A stretch of 64,000 nucleotides of DNA from an uncultured Alphaproteobacteria bacterium (GCA_902557145.1 CACDYZ010000002.1:62001-126000), one strand, 5' to 3'. Positions 29,694 through 37,572 are shown, counted from the stretch's first letter. Program-made: numbers and translations. Notes: generated by a model from the letters alone, not told the origin.

Positions 29694-30492
29694 TTCTATG
29701 TTCCCTAAAAAAGTTTTTTAATAAATTTTTAGTTTCACTTGCTGTTTCTAAAATTGCCATATGTCCTGACTCTTCCAGAACAATAGTTTTTGAGTCTTTT
29801 ATTTTAGACGCTAATTCTAATCCAACTTTTTTAGGTGTCATTTTATCATGCTTACCAACAATACATAAAGTAGGATGCTTTACACTTTCTGCAGCTTTCA
29901 GTCCATTTGTGTAAATATCACATGCATTAAAGTCTGTGCCTAATGTTCCATTATTATTAGATGAAACTAATTGACCACCCATTCCTAAATGACTTAAACC
30001 TGGAACAGGATGGCCACCTTTATGTCCTAAAGGTCCGTGTACCCAATCCATCATTAAATCGACAGCTTTTTGATCTTTATTTAATGCTAAGTCTAAAAGC
30101 TCTGTATTCATTTTCATGGACATTGATCCATTAATTAAAGCCAGAAGTTCTAATTTATCAGGATGTCTTTGAGCAAATTCTAAACCAACTAAACATCCTT
30201 GTGAATGACCGACATAAGAGGTCTTCTCTATTCCTAAAGAAGTTATCAAATCAGCAATCCAATCGGCCATTTCCTCAATTGTTTTTAAAGCAGGACCTTC
30301 GGAGTCACCATGACCTGGTAAATCAACAGCTATCGTATTGTATCCATGAAAAGCAAAATACCTTGTTTGGAGAACCCAAGTAACATGAGTCAAACCACTT
30401 CCATGAACAAACACGATAGTTGGTTGTTTTTTATCTATCTCTCTTCCACTAGAAGTGTAATAAGCATCTTTGTCGTTTATCTTTATCTTCAT
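29683..30492 (-). CDS. Alpha/beta-fold hydrolase
   Basis: Cytoplasmic hydrolase of 269 residues. The oxyanion-hole region is FVHGSGLTHVTW, the nucleophile elbow GHSQG, the acid Asp in CIVGKHDKMTP and the His in ESGHMAI. Reaction unknown: the fold covers esterases, haloperoxidases and C-C hydrolases. It overlaps metY by 4 bases and the GFA gene by 11, an arrangement that suggests a shared transcript; a link to homocysteine metabolism is possible but unproven. Confidence 0.9.
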   Translation of the reverse strand: MKIKINDKDAYYTSSGREIDKKQPTIVFVHGSGLTHVTWVLQTRYFAFHGYNTIAVDLPGHGDSEGPALKTIEEMADWIADLITSLGIEKTSYVGHSQGCLVGLEFAQRHPDKLELLALINGSMSMKMNTELLDLALNKDQKAVDLMMDWVHGPLGHKGGHPVPGLSHLGMGGQLVSSNNNGTLGTDFNACDIYTNGLKAAESVKHPTLCIVGKHDKMTPKKVGLELASKIKDSKTIVLEESGHMAILETASETKNLLKNFFREHRSAS

Positions 30493-31802
30493 TTAGAAGC
30501 AACAAGTCTTGGTCTTTGAGATGCCTTAAAACCCATATCGAAGTCAGTCATAATATCTTCCATGTCTTCTAATCCCACTGAAAATCTAATCATATCCTCT
30601 GTTAAACCAGCTAACTCTAATGATTTTTTATCCATTTGAGAGTGTGTTGCTGATGCAGGGTGAATAACCAAAGATTTTGCATCACCAACATTGGCAAGGT
30701 GAGAAGTAAGCTTCAAGGCATTTATAAATGCATGACCTGCCTCTTTTCCACCCTTAATACCAAATGCTATCATTGAACCAGCTCCTTTTGGCATTAACTT
30801 AGAAGCTACTTTGTGATCTGGATGATCAGGCAAACTTGGATGATTAACCCATGATACGCTCTCATTGTTTGTTAAGTAATCAAGCATAATTTGAGTATTG
30901 GATAAATGTTTTTCCATTCTTACTGATAAGGTTTCAATACCTATTAAAATATTAAAAGCATTGGTTGGACTCATACATGGTCCAAAATCTCTCATTCCTT
31001 CTGCCCTAGCTCTCATTGTAAAAGCTGCGGGTCCAAATTCTTCTGCAAAAGATAAACCATGATAACCTTCATATGGCTCAGTCATTGTTGGAAATTTATT
31101 TCCTTTAGTCCAATCAAAATCACCCTTTTCAACAATAATACCACCCATTGAAGTTCCATGACCAGCCATCCACTTTGTTAGAGAGTGAGTTATGATATCA
31201 GCTCCTAAATCAAATAAATTACATAGATATGGAGTATTAAATGTTCCATCAACCATTAGAGGTATATTTGCTTCCTTTGCAATTTTAGAAATTTCAGGTA
31301 AGTCCATTATTTCAATGCCGGGGTTTCCTATAAGCTCTCCCCAAATACATTTTGTATTTGGTTGAATTGCATTTTTAAAACCCTCTGTGTCTCTTGGTTT
31401 TACAAATGTTGTATCTATTCCAAATCTTTTTAAAGTTAATCTTAATAAATTAAATGATCCTCCATAAAGCTGTGAGGAGGAAACCACATGATCACCTGCA
31501 CTACAAACGTTTAAAATAGCTAGAGTCATGGCACTCATTCCTGAAGCGGTTGCTAAAGCAGCTGAACCACCTTCAAGCGCAGCGACTCTTTCTTCAAGCA
31601 CTGAGATAGTAGGATTTGATATTCTACTGTAAATATGCCCGCCCTCTTCAAGATTGAATAATGCAGCAGCATGGTCCGCATCTTGAAATAGATAAGAGGT
31701 TGTTTGATAAATTGGAACAGCACGAGAGCCAAAATTTTTATCTGGCTGATGTCCACTATGTAACGTTTTAGTGTTAAATTTGTATGTTTTAGGATCTGTC
31801 AT
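30489..31802 (-). CDS. metY: O-acetylhomoserine sulfhydrylase
   Basis: Cys/Met-metabolism PLP enzyme making homocysteine from O-acetylhomoserine and sulfide. FNTKTLHSGHQPD, AVPIYQTTSYLFQDADHAA, YSRISNPTISVLEERVAALEGG (in parts), ATASGMSAM, the PLP lysine in THSLTKWMAGHGTSMGG and the RFSVGLED end are characteristic; the ~437-residue length distinguishes MetY from shorter MetB/MetC/MetZ. The 89-base space upstream holds an AT-only inverted repeat (31819-31834) and no recognisable SAM riboswitch. Confidence 0.95.
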   Translation of the reverse strand: MTDPKTYKFNTKTLHSGHQPDKNFGSRAVPIYQTTSYLFQDADHAAALFNLEEGGHIYSRISNPTISVLEERVAALEGGSAALATASGMSAMTLAILNVCSAGDHVVSSSQLYGGSFNLLRLTLKRFGIDTTFVKPRDTEGFKNAIQPNTKCIWGELIGNPGIEIMDLPEISKIAKEANIPLMVDGTFNTPYLCNLFDLGADIITHSLTKWMAGHGTSMGGIIVEKGDFDWTKGNKFPTMTEPYEGYHGLSFAEEFGPAAFTMRARAEGMRDFGPCMSPTNAFNILIGIETLSVRMEKHLSNTQIMLDYLTNNESVSWVNHPSLPDHPDHKVASKLMPKGAGSMIAFGIKGGKEAGHAFINALKLTSHLANVGDAKSLVIHPASATHSQMDKKSLELAGLTEDMIRFSVGLEDMEDIMTDFDMGFKASQRPRLVASK

Positions 31803-31891: not shown

Positions 31892-33619
31892 TTAATAGTT
31901 TGTAATCCACATTGTTTGGTAAGCTTTAAGAGTAATTGTAGATTTAATATCAATAATAATTTCATTAGAAATTAAGTCCCACCACTCATTAGAAGAAATT
32001 AAATTTAGTTCTGATAAATCTAAATATTGAAAAACATTAGTAACGTTACTGATACAAAAAATAGATTGTCTTTTATCGTGGCTTTGTCTCCAAAAGCCGA
32101 AAAAGTTTTTTCCCAAATTAAATGTAAATTGAGTGGCGTTCGGATGAAAAGCTGGTTGATCTTTTCTAATATCGATTAATTTTGATAACTCACTGTAGAT
32201 CTGATTATTTAAGGAGTCTTTGTCACTTAATAGTTTATCAATTTCATCAAACTTCCATGATCTTCTATTAATAGATCTCTTGTTATTTGTTTTCTCAACT
32301 TGTTTATAATCATTCGTAGATCCAACGAGACTGTGTATATAAATAGCAGGCATACCCTCAATACCTAACATCATTGAATGACAACATATAAATCTCTCTA
32401 ACTGCATGTGATCAGTTCCAAAAAAAGTGCCTTTAAGAGCATCAAGCAGGGAAATGTTTATTTCATAGACAGACTCTGTGTTATCAACTTTTTTTCTTTT
32501 AGTGGTCTGACCACCAAAGTCAGTCATGATATCTACTAATGTGTCTCTTTCTTTGTCAGTTAAAATACCTTCTGTAGGTCTAAGACCAATTCCATCATGA
32601 GAAGCTATAAAATTAAAATAAGAGGTATTATCTTTTGCAGGGGGCATGCCCATTGACCACTTTCTAATAGCTGTACTATCACCCATTACCAAAGTCCAAA
32701 GCAACAAAGGAGGTAAAGCAAAGTTATATATTGCATTAGCCTCATCATTTTCTCCAAAATAACTAAGATTTTCTAAATTTGGTAAATTCGTTTCAGTGAT
32801 AAGAAGAGTATTTTTACTATATGCATTTAAAAGAGTCCTAATGAGTTTAACAACTTCATGTGTTTGAGGTAAATTTAAACAATTAGTTCCATATTCTTTC
32901 CACAGAAAAGCAATAGCATCTAATCGAAATACTCTAATACCATTCTTTAAATATAAATGGATTAATTTGATAAAAAAGAAAAGAACCTTAGGATTTTTGA
33001 AATTAAAATCTACCTGGTCATGGCTAAATGTACACCACAAATAAAAAGTCTCATCATTGATTGCATACTCTTTAAAAAGATCTGAACTTCTTGGACGTAC
33101 AACACTCTCATATCCCTCTTGTACATTTTTCAGTTTGATAAAAAAATTTTGTGTGTCTTCTTTATTTTCAATAAAGTTTTTAAAATATTTACTTTTTATA
33201 GAGGCATGATTTATAACTATGTCACTCATAACTCTAAAATCTTTTGACAATGATTTCATATCTTGCCAGTTACCTAAATCAGGTCTTACAATTTCATAAT
33301 CTGTTATAGAAAATCCATCATCAGAGCTATATGGAAAAAAGGGTAGAATATGAACATTATTAAAATGTTTCTTACAATATTTATTTAAAAATTTAGATAG
33401 TGCTTTTAATTTATTATCAGAGGTTTCTATAATAGAGTCACCATATGATATTAAAAAAATATCTTTTTGTGACCAATTAGGTTCAGTAATACCCTGATCT
33501 TTGTTTTCAAATAAATCTAAAACCTTATTAATTAACTTTAAGATCTCATTTTGATCTAAGATATCTTTATAAATAATTTGAAAATGGATATTTAAATTAT
33601 TTTTTAATTCTTCTCTCAA
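31892..33619 (-). CDS. GH13_18 phosphorylase, probably glucosylglycerate phosphorylase
   Basis: Glycoside phosphorylase of the sucrose-phosphorylase family, 575 residues. The GH13 barrel is clear: ILPFFPYSSDDGFSI, DIVINHAS, catalytic nucleophile Asp234 in GIRVFRLDAIAF, acid/base Glu276 in LLITETNLPN, and the transition-state Asp in IASHDGIGLRPTEG. Position directly after gpgS (one base between them), gpgP and a glycerate kinase makes glucosylglycerate the likely substrate: glucosylglycerate plus phosphate gives glucose-1-phosphate plus D-glycerate. Sucrose phosphorylase is the alternative. Subfamily is secure; the substrate is inferred from context. Confidence 0.88.
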   Translation of the reverse strand: MREELKNNLNIHFQIIYKDILDQNEILKLINKVLDLFENKDQGITEPNWSQKDIFLISYGDSIIETSDNKLKALSKFLNKYCKKHFNNVHILPFFPYSSDDGFSITDYEIVRPDLGNWQDMKSLSKDFRVMSDIVINHASIKSKYFKNFIENKEDTQNFFIKLKNVQEGYESVVRPRSSDLFKEYAINDETFYLWCTFSHDQVDFNFKNPKVLFFFIKLIHLYLKNGIRVFRLDAIAFLWKEYGTNCLNLPQTHEVVKLIRTLLNAYSKNTLLITETNLPNLENLSYFGENDEANAIYNFALPPLLLWTLVMGDSTAIRKWSMGMPPAKDNTSYFNFIASHDGIGLRPTEGILTDKERDTLVDIMTDFGGQTTKRKKVDNTESVYEINISLLDALKGTFFGTDHMQLERFICCHSMMLGIEGMPAIYIHSLVGSTNDYKQVEKTNNKRSINRRSWKFDEIDKLLSDKDSLNNQIYSELSKLIDIRKDQPAFHPNATQFTFNLGKNFFGFWRQSHDKRQSIFCISNVTNVFQYLDLSELNLISSNEWWDLISNEIIIDIKSTITLKAYQTMWITNY

Positions 33620-33620
33620 C

Positions 33621-34832
33621 TTATGCGTTATCTTCTTTTACAGCTTTGTTAAAACTATCTAAAATTGTTGGATCTGCACTGTCAATTCTTCTCCATGTTG
33701 GGATGTTGGGATTTTCACTTGGAGACTCTAAAAAAATCTTACCTGCTTCAATAATATTTTGTGCAAACAACTCAACCATTTCCTCTTCTTTATGTACATC
33801 AAAGTCCAAGCCATTCATTTCAGCATCTGTTTTGTATATCTGGACCATATCAAGAGCCATACGAAAATATGTAGCTTTTAATGAACGAAATTTTTCATGA
33901 GAAAATACCTGACCTTGAGTAGCCAGTTTTCTAAAGATAGCTTTAGATATATCAATGGTCATTTTAGACAACCCTTTTTGTCTATTATTTTTTGAAACTT
34001 CTTGGTGTTTATGCTCATAGGTTTCTGCTAAATCAACTTGACAAATACGATTATTAGCAAAGTTTCTATACATTTCAGACAGTATACCAACCTCCAAGCC
34101 CCAATCATGAGGAACTCTGATATCATTTAAAAGATCATACTTAAATGAGAATTCACCAGCTAAAGGATATTTAAATATATCTAGAAAGTTAAGATATTCA
34201 TTATAACCAACCATTTTTTGTAAAGATTTTACTAAAGGTGTTACTAGTAATCTTGTTACTCTTCCGTTCATTTTTCCTTGAGCTACGCGGGGGTAAAAAC
34301 CTTTGCAAAAATCAAAAGAAAACTTTGGGTTTGCAACTGGATAAAATAACTTTGCTAATAAATTTTTATCATAAGTAACAATATCACAATCGTGCATAGC
34401 TACTGTACCAGAATCTTTTAAAGAAATTACAAAACCCATGCAGTACCATATATTTCTGCCCTTACCTTTTTCTAAAGGAGATAAGTCTAAATTAGCCAAG
34501 GCTTGATCTATTTTTTTTAATCTTGGGCCATCATTCCAAAGAATATAAGTTTTTTGTGGAAGGACTGAAAAAAACTTTTTAGCTTTTACAAATTCATTTT
34601 TGTTTGCTTGATCTAAACCGATAACTACATTTTTAATATATTTTACTTTCTTTAAAGTATTAACAATATAAGTCAAAGCTGGTTTTTCTAATTCAGAATA
34701 AAGAGAGGGTAAAATTAGAGTCATGGGGGAAGTTTTTGAAAAAGATAAAAGATCTTTTTCAATTTGTTCAATTTTTTTTGTATTAAAATTGTGAAGTGTA
34801 GCTATGACACCATTTTGATGAAAATCAGGCAT
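33621..34832 (-). CDS. gpgS: Glucosyl-3-phosphoglycerate synthase
   Basis: GT81 retaining glycosyltransferase that joins glucose from an NDP-glucose donor to 3-phosphoglycerate, the first step to the compatible solute glucosylglycerate. Length 403. Donor and metal-binding region AMHDCDIVTYDKNLLAKLFYP, then KGFYPRVAQGKMNGRVTRLLVTPL (both read in parts) and YPLAGEFSF match GpgS; PHDWGLEVGILSEMYRN is a further signature. It lies between the phosphatase gene (2-base gap) and the phosphorylase gene in one minus-strand operon. Mannosyl-3-phosphoglycerate synthase is a different family and unlikely. Confidence 0.93.
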   Translation of the reverse strand: MPDFHQNGVIATLHNFNTKKIEQIEKDLLSFSKTSPMTLILPSLYSELEKPALTYIVNTLKKVKYIKNVVIGLDQANKNEFVKAKKFFSVLPQKTYILWNDGPRLKKIDQALANLDLSPLEKGKGRNIWYCMGFVISLKDSGTVAMHDCDIVTYDKNLLAKLFYPVANPKFSFDFCKGFYPRVAQGKMNGRVTRLLVTPLVKSLQKMVGYNEYLNFLDIFKYPLAGEFSFKYDLLNDIRVPHDWGLEVGILSEMYRNFANNRICQVDLAETYEHKHQEVSKNNRQKGLSKMTIDISKAIFRKLATQGQVFSHEKFRSLKATYFRMALDMVQIYKTDAEMNGLDFDVHKEEEMVELFAQNIIEAGKIFLESPSENPNIPTWRRIDSADPTILDSFNKAVKEDNA

Positions 34833-34834
34833 AT

Positions 34835-35668
34835 TTAAAAAATTTTATTCTCCAATGTATTGTTCAATTTATATAGGACTTGACTCCAACCGTCAGGTGC
34901 AAACTTTGATGACTTCAATATATTTTTTTTATTTGAACGCAACTTAGGGAAAGATCCAGATGGATTATTTATAAGACATGGGTAACTAGCAGAATTTAAC
35001 ATATCAATATCATTTTTACTGTCGCCAAGAGCTATAGTATTTTTAGAGTATGTACCATAAAATTGATTATCATATATATGAGATATTAACTTTTTAGCTA
35101 TTCTTTTGTTGCATACAGATGAAACTTGCATGAATCTACTACCTTGTATTAACACTCCCTGTTTTTCAGATCTAAGCTCATTTATAAATTTTCTTAAATT
35201 TGAAAAACTATCTTCCCAGAGAATAATTTGACTAGCCTCTCTATTTAGCATCTTACTAGTATTATCTAAGTTTGTGTATTTTTTTAAAATCTTAGAGGGA
35301 AGATCTTGGGCTATTAGAAGTTTAAATTTTTTTTGTTTTTTTAATAAAAATTGATGCCAATTCTTAGAGGATAATTTTGCAATTCTAATTTTCCAATATT
35401 TACCGTAATCAGATGAGTTCTTAATTTTCTTGAAACGATTTTTTGGAAAATATAAAAGTGCTCCATTCTCTGTGCTAAAAGGCATATTGGTTAAATTTAG
35501 TTTTTTTAATAAATTTATAGACTCACTAAATGTCTTACTTGTATTAAAAATAATATCATGTTGATTATTGATAATACTAGTAATGGTTTCATTGTTATAA
35601 CCATAAGAATAATTTTCGTGATCTAATAATGTCCCATCTAAATCAGTGAAGATAAGATATTTCTTCAT
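34835..35668 (-). CDS. Glucosyl-3-phosphoglycerate phosphatase (HAD-IIB, MPGP family)
   Basis: HAD-superfamily phosphatase of the mannosyl-3-phosphoglycerate phosphatase family, 277 residues. Motif I is IFTDLDGTLLD (nucleophile Asp9), motif II IIFNTSKTF, the cap contains LIQGSRFMQVSS, and motif IV is IALGDSKNDIDML. It dephosphorylates the GpgS product to glucosylglycerate; family members act on both mannosyl and glucosyl substrates, and the gpgS neighbour sets the choice here. It overlaps the glycerate kinase gene by 4 bases. Confidence 0.9.
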   Translation of the reverse strand: MKKYLIFTDLDGTLLDHENYSYGYNNETITSIINNQHDIIFNTSKTFSESINLLKKLNLTNMPFSTENGALLYFPKNRFKKIKNSSDYGKYWKIRIAKLSSKNWHQFLLKKQKKFKLLIAQDLPSKILKKYTNLDNTSKMLNREASQIILWEDSFSNLRKFINELRSEKQGVLIQGSRFMQVSSVCNKRIAKKLISHIYDNQFYGTYSKNTIALGDSKNDIDMLNSASYPCLINNPSGSFPKLRSNKKNILKSSKFAPDGWSQVLYKLNNTLENKIF

Positions 35669-36519
35669 TTGTATATTATTTTTTTCATTTTTTGATTTTT
35701 ATCTAATGTAATTAGAATATTACAAATATCAGGACAAGATAAAGACATCCATTTTGATAATTTTTCATAATATTGTATGAAAAGATAGAGTTTCTTTTTA
35801 AGATGATTATCACTACTCAATGAACGAAGATTTAATTCTTGCTTGTACTTCCAGTTAATCACATATTTCCAATCAGGAAGTTTAATAAAAATATAATAAT
35901 TAAACTTATTAAAAAGTTTTTGGTATTCAACTAAGGATTGATTGTAAGCTGTTCTCCATATCATATCAGGATCATTTATTTTTTCTAAGTCATTAATATT
36001 CTTTCTTAAATACAAAGGATCAATTGGTTTTGAGCCAACACACCACCCTTCTAAAATTATTAAATCTGCTTTATTTATTTTTCTATTATGTTTTTTTTTA
36101 TTGTCAGTTACCTTGTCAAAGATTGGAATATATACTGGAAATTTATTTCTCTTTAATTTATCTACTGTCTCAATAAGTAATTTTAAATTATGGGTACATG
36201 GAACACCTCTGGTGTGAAATAAATTTGTCTTAAATTTGATTGCTAATTTTTTTCTTTTAAATGAAGATAGATAAAAATCATCAATACTTAATATAACAAC
36301 ATCCTTTTTATAAAATTTTTTAAAATAAGTTTTAATAAGTAGTGATAAAGTAGATTTACCAGAGCCTTGTGATCCTGCAATCATTAGTGTTTTTTTATTA
36401 TGTAATTGGCTAAATAATTTATAGTAAGTGTCTTTAATCTCTGAAATAGAAATATTCTCTCTAGTTAGTTTATTTAGGGAATATTGAATAAACTCTAATT
36501 GAGATTGTATTTCTGACAT
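35665..36519 (-). CDS. D-glycerate 3-kinase (GLYK/Tda10-like P-loop kinase)
   Basis: P-loop kinase of 284 residues related to plant glycerate kinase, yeast Tda10 and pantothenate/uridine kinases. Walker A is GSQGSGKST at 49-57, with VILSIDDFYLS, the substrate loop HTRGVPCTHN, PIFDKVTDN and the ILEGWCVG strand. It phosphorylates D-glycerate to 3-phosphoglycerate, which is the GpgS acceptor and the fate of glycerate released by the phosphorylase. First gene of the glucosylglycerate operon; its promoter must lie in 36520-36655, downstream of tRNA-Arg on the same strand. Confidence 0.88.
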   Translation of the reverse strand: MSEIQSQLEFIQYSLNKLTRENISISEIKDTYYKLFSQLHNKKTLMIAGSQGSGKSTLSLLIKTYFKKFYKKDVVILSIDDFYLSSFKRKKLAIKFKTNLFHTRGVPCTHNLKLLIETVDKLKRNKFPVYIPIFDKVTDNKKKHNRKINKADLIILEGWCVGSKPIDPLYLRKNINDLEKINDPDMIWRTAYNQSLVEYQKLFNKFNYYIFIKLPDWKYVINWKYKQELNLRSLSSDNHLKKKLYLFIQYYEKLSKWMSLSCPDICNILITLDKNQKMKKIIYK

Positions 36520-36655: not shown

Positions 36656-36732
36656 TGGCGCGCTCTGCAGGATTCGAACCTGCGACCCTCTGCTTAGAAG
36701 GCAGATGCTCTATCCAGCTGAGCTAAGAGCGC
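36656..36732 (-). tRNA. tRNA-Arg (anticodon TCT)
   Basis: Full cloverleaf on the minus strand, 77 bases with an encoded CCA. Acceptor GCGCTCT pairs with AGAGCGC, the D-arm is GCTC/GAGC, the anticodon stem TCTGC/GCAGA encloses loop CTTCTAA with anticodon TCT (reads AGA), and the T-arm is GCAGG TTCGAAT CCTGC. It lies between the glycerate kinase gene and livG. AGA is a preferred Arg codon in AT-rich genomes. Confidence 0.98.
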
Positions 36733-36795: not shown

Positions 36796-37572
36796 ATGAA
36801 CAACACATTAATAAAAGTCGAAAATATAGTAAAAACATTTGGTGGTTTAGTAGCGCTTAATGACTGCTCCTTAGAAATTAAAGATAAAGCTATTACTGGT
36901 ATTATAGGGCCTAATGGCTCAGGCAAAACGACATTATTTAACGTCATAACTGGTAATCTTAAACCAGATACAGGGAAAGTTTTCTTTAATGGTGTTGAAA
37001 TCACAAATGAAGAGTCACACGACTTGTTTCATTTAGGTGTATTAAGAACATTTCAAATTGCACACGAATTTTCAAATATGACAGTTATTGAAAATTTAAT
37101 GGTAGTTCCAGGTAATCAAAAGGGTGAAAAACTTCTCTACTCTCTTATGAATAATCGACAAATAAAAAAAGAGGATGAAATTATAAGAGATAAGGCTATG
37201 GATGTTCTAAAATTCCTTAAGATAGAACACTTAAAAAATGAAAGAGCTGGAAATCTTTCTGGAGGACAAAAGAAATTATTAGAGTTGGCGAGAACAATGA
37301 TGGTTGATGCAAAAATAGTTTTCTTAGATGAAGTTGGAGCAGGTGTTAATAAAACTCTTTTAAAAGATATCAGTGAGTCGATTTTAAAACTTAATCAGGA
37401 TAAAGGTTACACTTTTTGTATGATTGAGCATGATTTTAATTTTATAAGTGAGTTATGTGATCCAGTTATTGTTTTAGCAGAGGGATCAGTCCTCTTTAAA
37501 GGTTCTGCTGAAGAAGTAAAGTCAAATGAACAAGTTATTGAGTCCTATTTGGGTAAGGGATTAAAAAAGTAA
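36796..37572 (+). CDS. livG: Branched-chain amino acid ABC transporter ATP-binding protein
   Basis: Cytoplasmic ATPase subunit of a HAAT-family importer, 258 residues. Walker A IIGPNGSGKTTLFN, signature NLSGGQKKLLELAR, Walker B IVFLDEVGAGV and the H-loop His in MIEHDFNFI are intact. The sequence GLVALNDCSLEI and the longer linker with RTFQIAHEF are typical of LivG compared with LivF. First of four plus-strand genes; its stop overlaps the livF ATG by one base. Confidence 0.95.
   Translation: MNNTLIKVENIVKTFGGLVALNDCSLEIKDKAITGIIGPNGSGKTTLFNVITGNLKPDTGKVFFNGVEITNEESHDLFHLGVLRTFQIAHEFSNMTVIENLMVVPGNQKGEKLLYSLMNNRQIKKEDEIIRDKAMDVLKFLKIEHLKNERAGNLSGGQKKLLELARTMMVDAKIVFLDEVGAGVNKTLLKDISESILKLNQDKGYTFCMIEHDFNFISELCDPVIVLAEGSVLFKGSAEEVKSNEQVIESYLGKGLKK

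Follow-up and report, generated by a model that had tools for sequence, protein, structure and literature searches.

A predicted operon for synthesis and recycling of glucosylglycerate in a probable HIMB59/AEGEAN-169 member, a streamlined marine alphaproteobacterium

Introduction

The association of 2-O-glucosylglycerate phosphorylase (GGaP) with glycerate kinase, glucosyl-3-phosphoglycerate synthase (GpgS) and the corresponding phosphatase (GpgP) was already stated in the 2020 review of Franceus and Desmet (PMC7178133). The same review told strict GGaP enzymes apart from sucrose phosphorylases by two signatures: beta-strand 5 carries (T/S)ETN, and loop A has a Glu. In Synechococcus sp. PCC 7002, genes A2021-A2023 encode GpgS, GGaP and GpgP (PMC10873239), and the corresponding region of Synechococcus WH8102 is SYNW2434-2436, whose middle gene, SYNW2435, is not named in that source (PMC2874817). 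Both strains are marine producers of glucosylglycerate (GG), and the synthesis genes and GGaP are adjacent by locus tag, as in the DNA described here, but the gene order is different and a glycerate kinase is not mentioned in the cluster (PMC10873239, PMC2874817). The clusters of marine Gammaproteobacteria (Alteromonas, Paraglaciecola, Catenovulum, Colwellia and Marinobacter) have the same four families, order and strand as our locus and mostly tight spacing, although their GGaP is ~46-53% identical to ours and GlyK and GpgP are fused in some Alteromonadales. The ycjM region of E. coli and a cluster in Meiothermus also encode a GGaP-type GH13_18 enzyme (~36% identity) but lie beside sugar ABC importers and lack gpgS and gpgP, a context of the uptake type.

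Here we analyse four genes from an uncultured alphaproteobacterium. They lie in the window, a stretch of 64,000 nucleotides (GCA_902557145.1, CACDYZ010000002.1:62001-126000), for which a preliminary description had proposed an operon that both makes GG and recovers its carbon.

Results and Discussion

Organization of the locus

Read along the minus strand from 36519 to 31892, the four ORFs (Table 1) are joined by junctions of -4, +2 and +1 bases, in agreement with the gaps of -4 to +2 reported before. The spacing and the conserved order imply that the four genes would share a single transcript. All sister genomes with a contig across the block kept this order. Each of the four genes shows purifying selection, with dN far below dS in comparisons with relatives (dN/dS from ~0.02-0.05 for GGaP and GpgS to ~0.2 for GlyK). 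Because the order is kept in all of these relatives and the genes are under selection, the block is not a chance assembly. Promoter and terminator scans of the locus performed no better than chance, with no more terminator-like sites than chance would give, and an Rfam search of the window returned tRNAs only.

One member of the same genus is arranged differently. In G069, assembled as a single contig of 1,410,127 bp, all four genes are present and GpgS is 82% identical to that of the window, but glyK-gpgP-gpgS lie behind a gene for a 475-aa exonuclease-like protein and ggaP stands alone ~390 kb away. The four functions thus co-occur in this genome, and a single message is not obligatory.

Table 1. 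Coordinates of the block and its borders in the window, and of the features discussed in other genomes.
Feature	Coordinates	Strand	Remarks
LivG-like ABC ATPase (named by eye)	36796..37572	+	core gene, high-coordinate border of the block
tRNA-Arg (TCT)	36656..36732	-	upstream of the glyK block; found by ARAGORN and Rfam; absent from the preliminary description
glyK, D-glycerate 3-kinase (P-loop, PRK/GLYK type)	35665..36519	-	284 aa; first gene of the putative operon
gpgP, glucosyl-3-phosphoglycerate phosphatase (HAD-IIB, MPGP family)	34835..35668	-	277 aa; 4-base overlap with glyK
gpgS, glucosyl-3-phosphoglycerate synthase	33621..34832	-	403 aa
ggaP, predicted 2-O-glucosylglycerate phosphorylase (GGaP, EC 2.4.1.352, GH13_18)	31892..33619	-	575 aa; TTG start
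PLP enzyme, Cys/Met metabolism type (MetY-like, named by eye)	30489..31802	-	core gene, low-coordinate border of the block
GlyK-GpgP fusion ORFs	L107:2714-4522, L118:2965-4698, L119:2849-4582, L167:2973-4718		
Split gpgP frame	L022:10803-11637		G006
Empty site	L043:6440-6697		G002
Tyrosine recombinase island	L032:8566-18341		G011
Sugar-type ABC importer	L021:10251-13465		equivalents in L022-L025 and L027
Putative secreted protein beside ggaP	L032:2628-3899, L023:6463-7734		
By-eye homologue of the putative secreted protein	L044:5306-6463		G024

Identity of the four enzymes

The families named in the preliminary description (D-glycerate 3-kinase, MPGP-family phosphatase, GpgS and GH13_18 phosphorylase) were borne out by profiles, solved relatives and motifs. 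For the phosphorylase, the expected catalytic residues, Asp (D233) and Glu (E275), were invariant across the GH13_18 alignment. The window protein has TETN at residues 274-277, a motif that was found in all other rows on the GGaP side of the alignment and was missing from annotated sucrose phosphorylases. Its loop A reads SVYEIN (382-387) with the conserved Glu, where the other clades mostly have Gln and the sucrose phosphorylases have NLDIYQ or NLDLYQ. The characterised E. coli enzyme YcjM matched over the full length at 36% identity and 382 bits by BLASTP; solved GH13_18 enzymes in the PDB reached at most 178 bits by phmmer, a score that is only roughly comparable with the BLASTP value. In a tree of 23 proteins, the check that had been proposed for this enzyme, a branch with 100/100 support separated the sucrose and glucosylglycerol phosphorylases from all TETN proteins, among them the window protein and YcjM, although order on the GGaP side was poorly resolved and a long outgroup branch leaves the inner order unsure. 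Prediction of the fourth ORF as a glucosylglycerate phosphorylase is well supported by the signatures, the similarity to YcjM and the tree.

The phosphatase ORF scored 184 bits with NF001218 and 123 bits with TIGR01486, the latter under a cut-off of 165 bits, and was above the cut-off for HAD-IIB (TIGR01484). It carries HAD motifs of the DxDGT and GDxxND types (FTDLDGT and GDSKND), and 1xvi and 1wzc were found as its relatives in the PDB. The synthase ORF matched the GpgS model NF040724 along its whole length (residues 3-402) with 357 bits, under the cut-off of 700 bits, and its metal-binding DxD motif, DCD, aligned with the DSD of the solved GpgS structures 7pdo and 7p5l. Scores of both proteins under the curated NCBI equivalog cut-offs count against our main explanation. 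We read them as divergence of an AT-rich lineage, because coverage is full-length and the motifs are retained.

The best solved relatives of GlyK were the D-glycerate 3-kinases 6ckg (3e-15) and 7xpc (5e-13) and the yeast P-loop kinase 1odf (1e-14), while pantothenate and uridine kinases scored far below these three. GlyK has the Walker A sequence GSQGSGKS and the motif SIDDFYL, and an alignment of eight homologues showed invariant motifs. This supports a kinase of the D-glycerate 3-kinase type, distinct from the GarK and MOFRL glycerate 2-kinases, with 3-phosphoglycerate as its predicted product; a glycerate 2-kinase or an unrelated kinase, either of which the preliminary description had set against its own reading, is not what the sequence indicates. 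GarK and MOFRL glycerate 2-kinases were looked for in GGaP loci without GlyK and were not found there. Within the RGVPGTH motif, a Gly shared by all seven of the homologues compared is replaced by Cys in the GlyK of the window.

The same arrangement in other bacteria

Genome contigs were scanned with an alignment of the window GGaP, YcjM and one sister copy, which yielded 80 loci, 70 of them outside the genus. In this sample, which is biased to the closest GGaP relatives and in which counts outside the genus are the total minus L059-L068, GpgS was beside GGaP in 70 of 70 loci and GpgP was present too in 67. GlyK of the same type was found in 50 of the 70 and the full set of four genes in 49, nearly all of which read GlyK-GpgP-GpgS-GGaP along one strand. 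The conservation of order that had been suggested as a check extends from the sister contigs that cover the block to loci outside the genus. The preliminary description had also considered it unusual for making and breaking enzymes to share one message. That view cannot be kept, given the 70 loci and the literature (PMC7178133, PMC10873239): making and breaking genes normally occur together where GGaP is of this class, as was already known.

Two variants bear on the kinase. Single ORFs of ~580-600 residues in which GlyK forms the N-terminal part and GpgP the remainder were present in at least four Alteromonadales, among them Pseudoalteromonas, Glaciecola HTCC2999 and another member of the Alteromonadaceae. 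In the alphaproteobacterium G275, an unrelated kinase of the MOFRL type adjoins GGaP in place of GlyK, which gives independent support for the glycerate step.

Proposed pathway

What the genes encode, how they are ordered, the signatures they carry, their conservation and the purifying selection on them together make it highly probable (about 0.9) that the locus is an operon for making and recycling GG. Its host is a streamlined marine alphaproteobacterium, which probably belongs to the HIMB59/AEGEAN-169 group. We infer the reactions of the four proteins from characterised relatives. GpgS would transfer the glucose of an NDP-glucose onto 3-phosphoglycerate, and GG would result once GpgP had stripped the phosphate. 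When the cell has no further need of GG, GGaP would use inorganic phosphate to release glucose 1-phosphate and D-glycerate, and GlyK would return D-glycerate to 3-phosphoglycerate at the expense of one ATP. The most likely role of GG would be that of a compatible solute free of nitrogen, with GGaP trimming its level and both halves being recovered. The pathway of synthesis and recovery put forward in the preliminary description is thus upheld by the enzyme set, the GGaP signatures, the similarity to YcjM and the 100/100 branch.

Its statement that only the ATP spent on glycerate is consumed holds for recovery, since regaining both halves of GG costs one ATP, at GlyK. It does not hold for a full turn. 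By established pathway chemistry, activation of glucose 1-phosphate for resynthesis uses one NTP and releases pyrophosphate, so that with the ATP at GlyK no fewer than two nucleoside triphosphates are spent per complete turn. Simultaneous synthesis and breakdown would amount to a futile cycle, and some control is therefore needed. A search for a GalU-type enzyme in the genome, which is 84% complete, found no confident candidate and only weak nucleotidyltransferase matches; this counts against the main explanation, and so does the distance of ggaP from glyK-gpgP-gpgS in G069, by which a single message is not essential.

Marine cyanobacteria from waters poor in nitrogen are known to contain GG as a solute, according to work cited in PMC12636525. 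A more ambitious version of the pathway is a buffered GG cycle in a nitrogen-limited lineage, in which the solute would double as a nitrogen-free carbon reserve, the enzymes would be made together and the balance would be set at the enzyme level; we offer it tentatively and think it rather doubtful. Making or recycling of GG in HIMB59/AEGEAN-169 was not mentioned in the papers on that clade that we searched, and the marine bacteria with a predicted capacity for GG synthesis and recycling now include a probable lineage of this group. The gain is modest because the arrangement is already known.

Alternative explanations

The locus might instead be mainly biosynthetic, with GlyK supplying GpgS with 3-phosphoglycerate from D-glycerate made elsewhere and GGaP perhaps running in the synthetic direction. 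The reaction of GGaP is reversible (PMC11009771), glyK overlaps gpgP in the window, the two form one gene in some Alteromonadales, and in G069 glyK, gpgP and gpgS are clustered without ggaP. Against this, glyK stands alone in genomes of the order that lack gpgS, so its position may be historical. The high phosphate and low glycerate of cells also favour GG breakdown, and we regard a mainly biosynthetic role as unlikely. A role of GGaP and GlyK mainly in eating GG released by phytoplankton, rather than the cell's own GG, would fit the importers beside the GGaP genes of E. coli and Meiothermus, where gpgS is absent, and the sugar-type importer that lies upstream of glyK in six sister genomes (see below). 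However, GpgS and GpgP are conserved in every copy with enough contig, no such importer adjoins the operon in the window, and the sister binding protein has no match to YcjN, which together make this role quite improbable.

The two remaining alternatives concern the substrate. Many automatic annotations would call the GH13_18 enzyme a phosphorylase of sucrose, sucrose 6-phosphate or glucosylglycerol, and the best NCBIfam match of the window protein was indeed TIGR03852, a sucrose phosphorylase model. The score of 195 bits is far under the cut-off of 334 bits, whereas loop A and TETN are of the GGaP type and the tree separates the two groups. On the motifs and the tree we reject a sucrose phosphorylase, and the wider set of activities is scarcely credible. 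The solute itself could be mannosylglycerate, or a polysaccharide primer derived from GG could be formed in place of free GG: the phosphatase family is named for mannosyl-3-phosphoglycerate phosphatase, and mycobacteria form GG early on the way to methylglucose lipopolysaccharide (PMC4555173). Yet the synthase matches GpgS models and the characterised relatives of the GGaP in the same operon act on GG, and we consider either solute very unlikely. The synthesis-and-recycling operon remains our preferred reading.

History of the block within the genus

The genus provides an intact block, a split block and an empty site, natural variants that would permit a comparison of what the phosphorylase and the kinase each do. 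The empty site is that of G002, where the same flanking genes and tRNA-Arg are present and 258 bases separate the LivG-like from the MetY-like gene; these two genes adjoin the four-gene block and the empty site alike. About 48 bases past the intact tRNA, G002 has a degraded second copy of the 3' end of tRNA-Arg (20 of 25 bases), possibly an old integration scar. In G011, the same tRNA is the site of an island that encodes a tyrosine recombinase and is bounded on both sides by perfect 25-bp repeats of the tRNA 3' end. The tRNA-Arg (TCT) upstream of the block is an integration hotspot in the genus. Viral contigs were scanned twice for the phosphorylase with no match, which leaves a phage origin without support.

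GlyK has a history that is partly its own. In the three closest comparisons (L028, L058 and L159), its synonymous divergence was roughly two- to sevenfold that of the adjacent genes, which suggests that the tRNA-side end of the block was replaced by a divergent allele. A two-family order has been described for HIMB59/AEGEAN-169 (PMC10734472), and GpgS and GGaP were searched for in the other family of the order and none were found. GlyK was present without the other three genes in that family and in G015, G019 and G024; GlyK is thus probably older here than the cluster.

Several further features were seen in the sister genomes. In G006, the gpgP frame is split into two overlapping ORFs by a frameshift or an assembly error, and the other three genes are intact. 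Six sisters carry genes for a sugar-type ABC importer on the same strand, ~100 bp upstream of glyK. They encode a binding protein and two permeases, 92-98% identical among the sisters, and are followed by SnoaL-like genes. Assignment of this importer to the YcjNOP type was unsupported, as the binding protein did not match YcjN and the permeases were 27-31% identical. In two sisters, ggaP adjoins a gene for a protein of 385-423 aa that has no Pfam match and is probably secreted, and a homologue of this protein, recognised by eye, adjoins the stand-alone glyK of G024.
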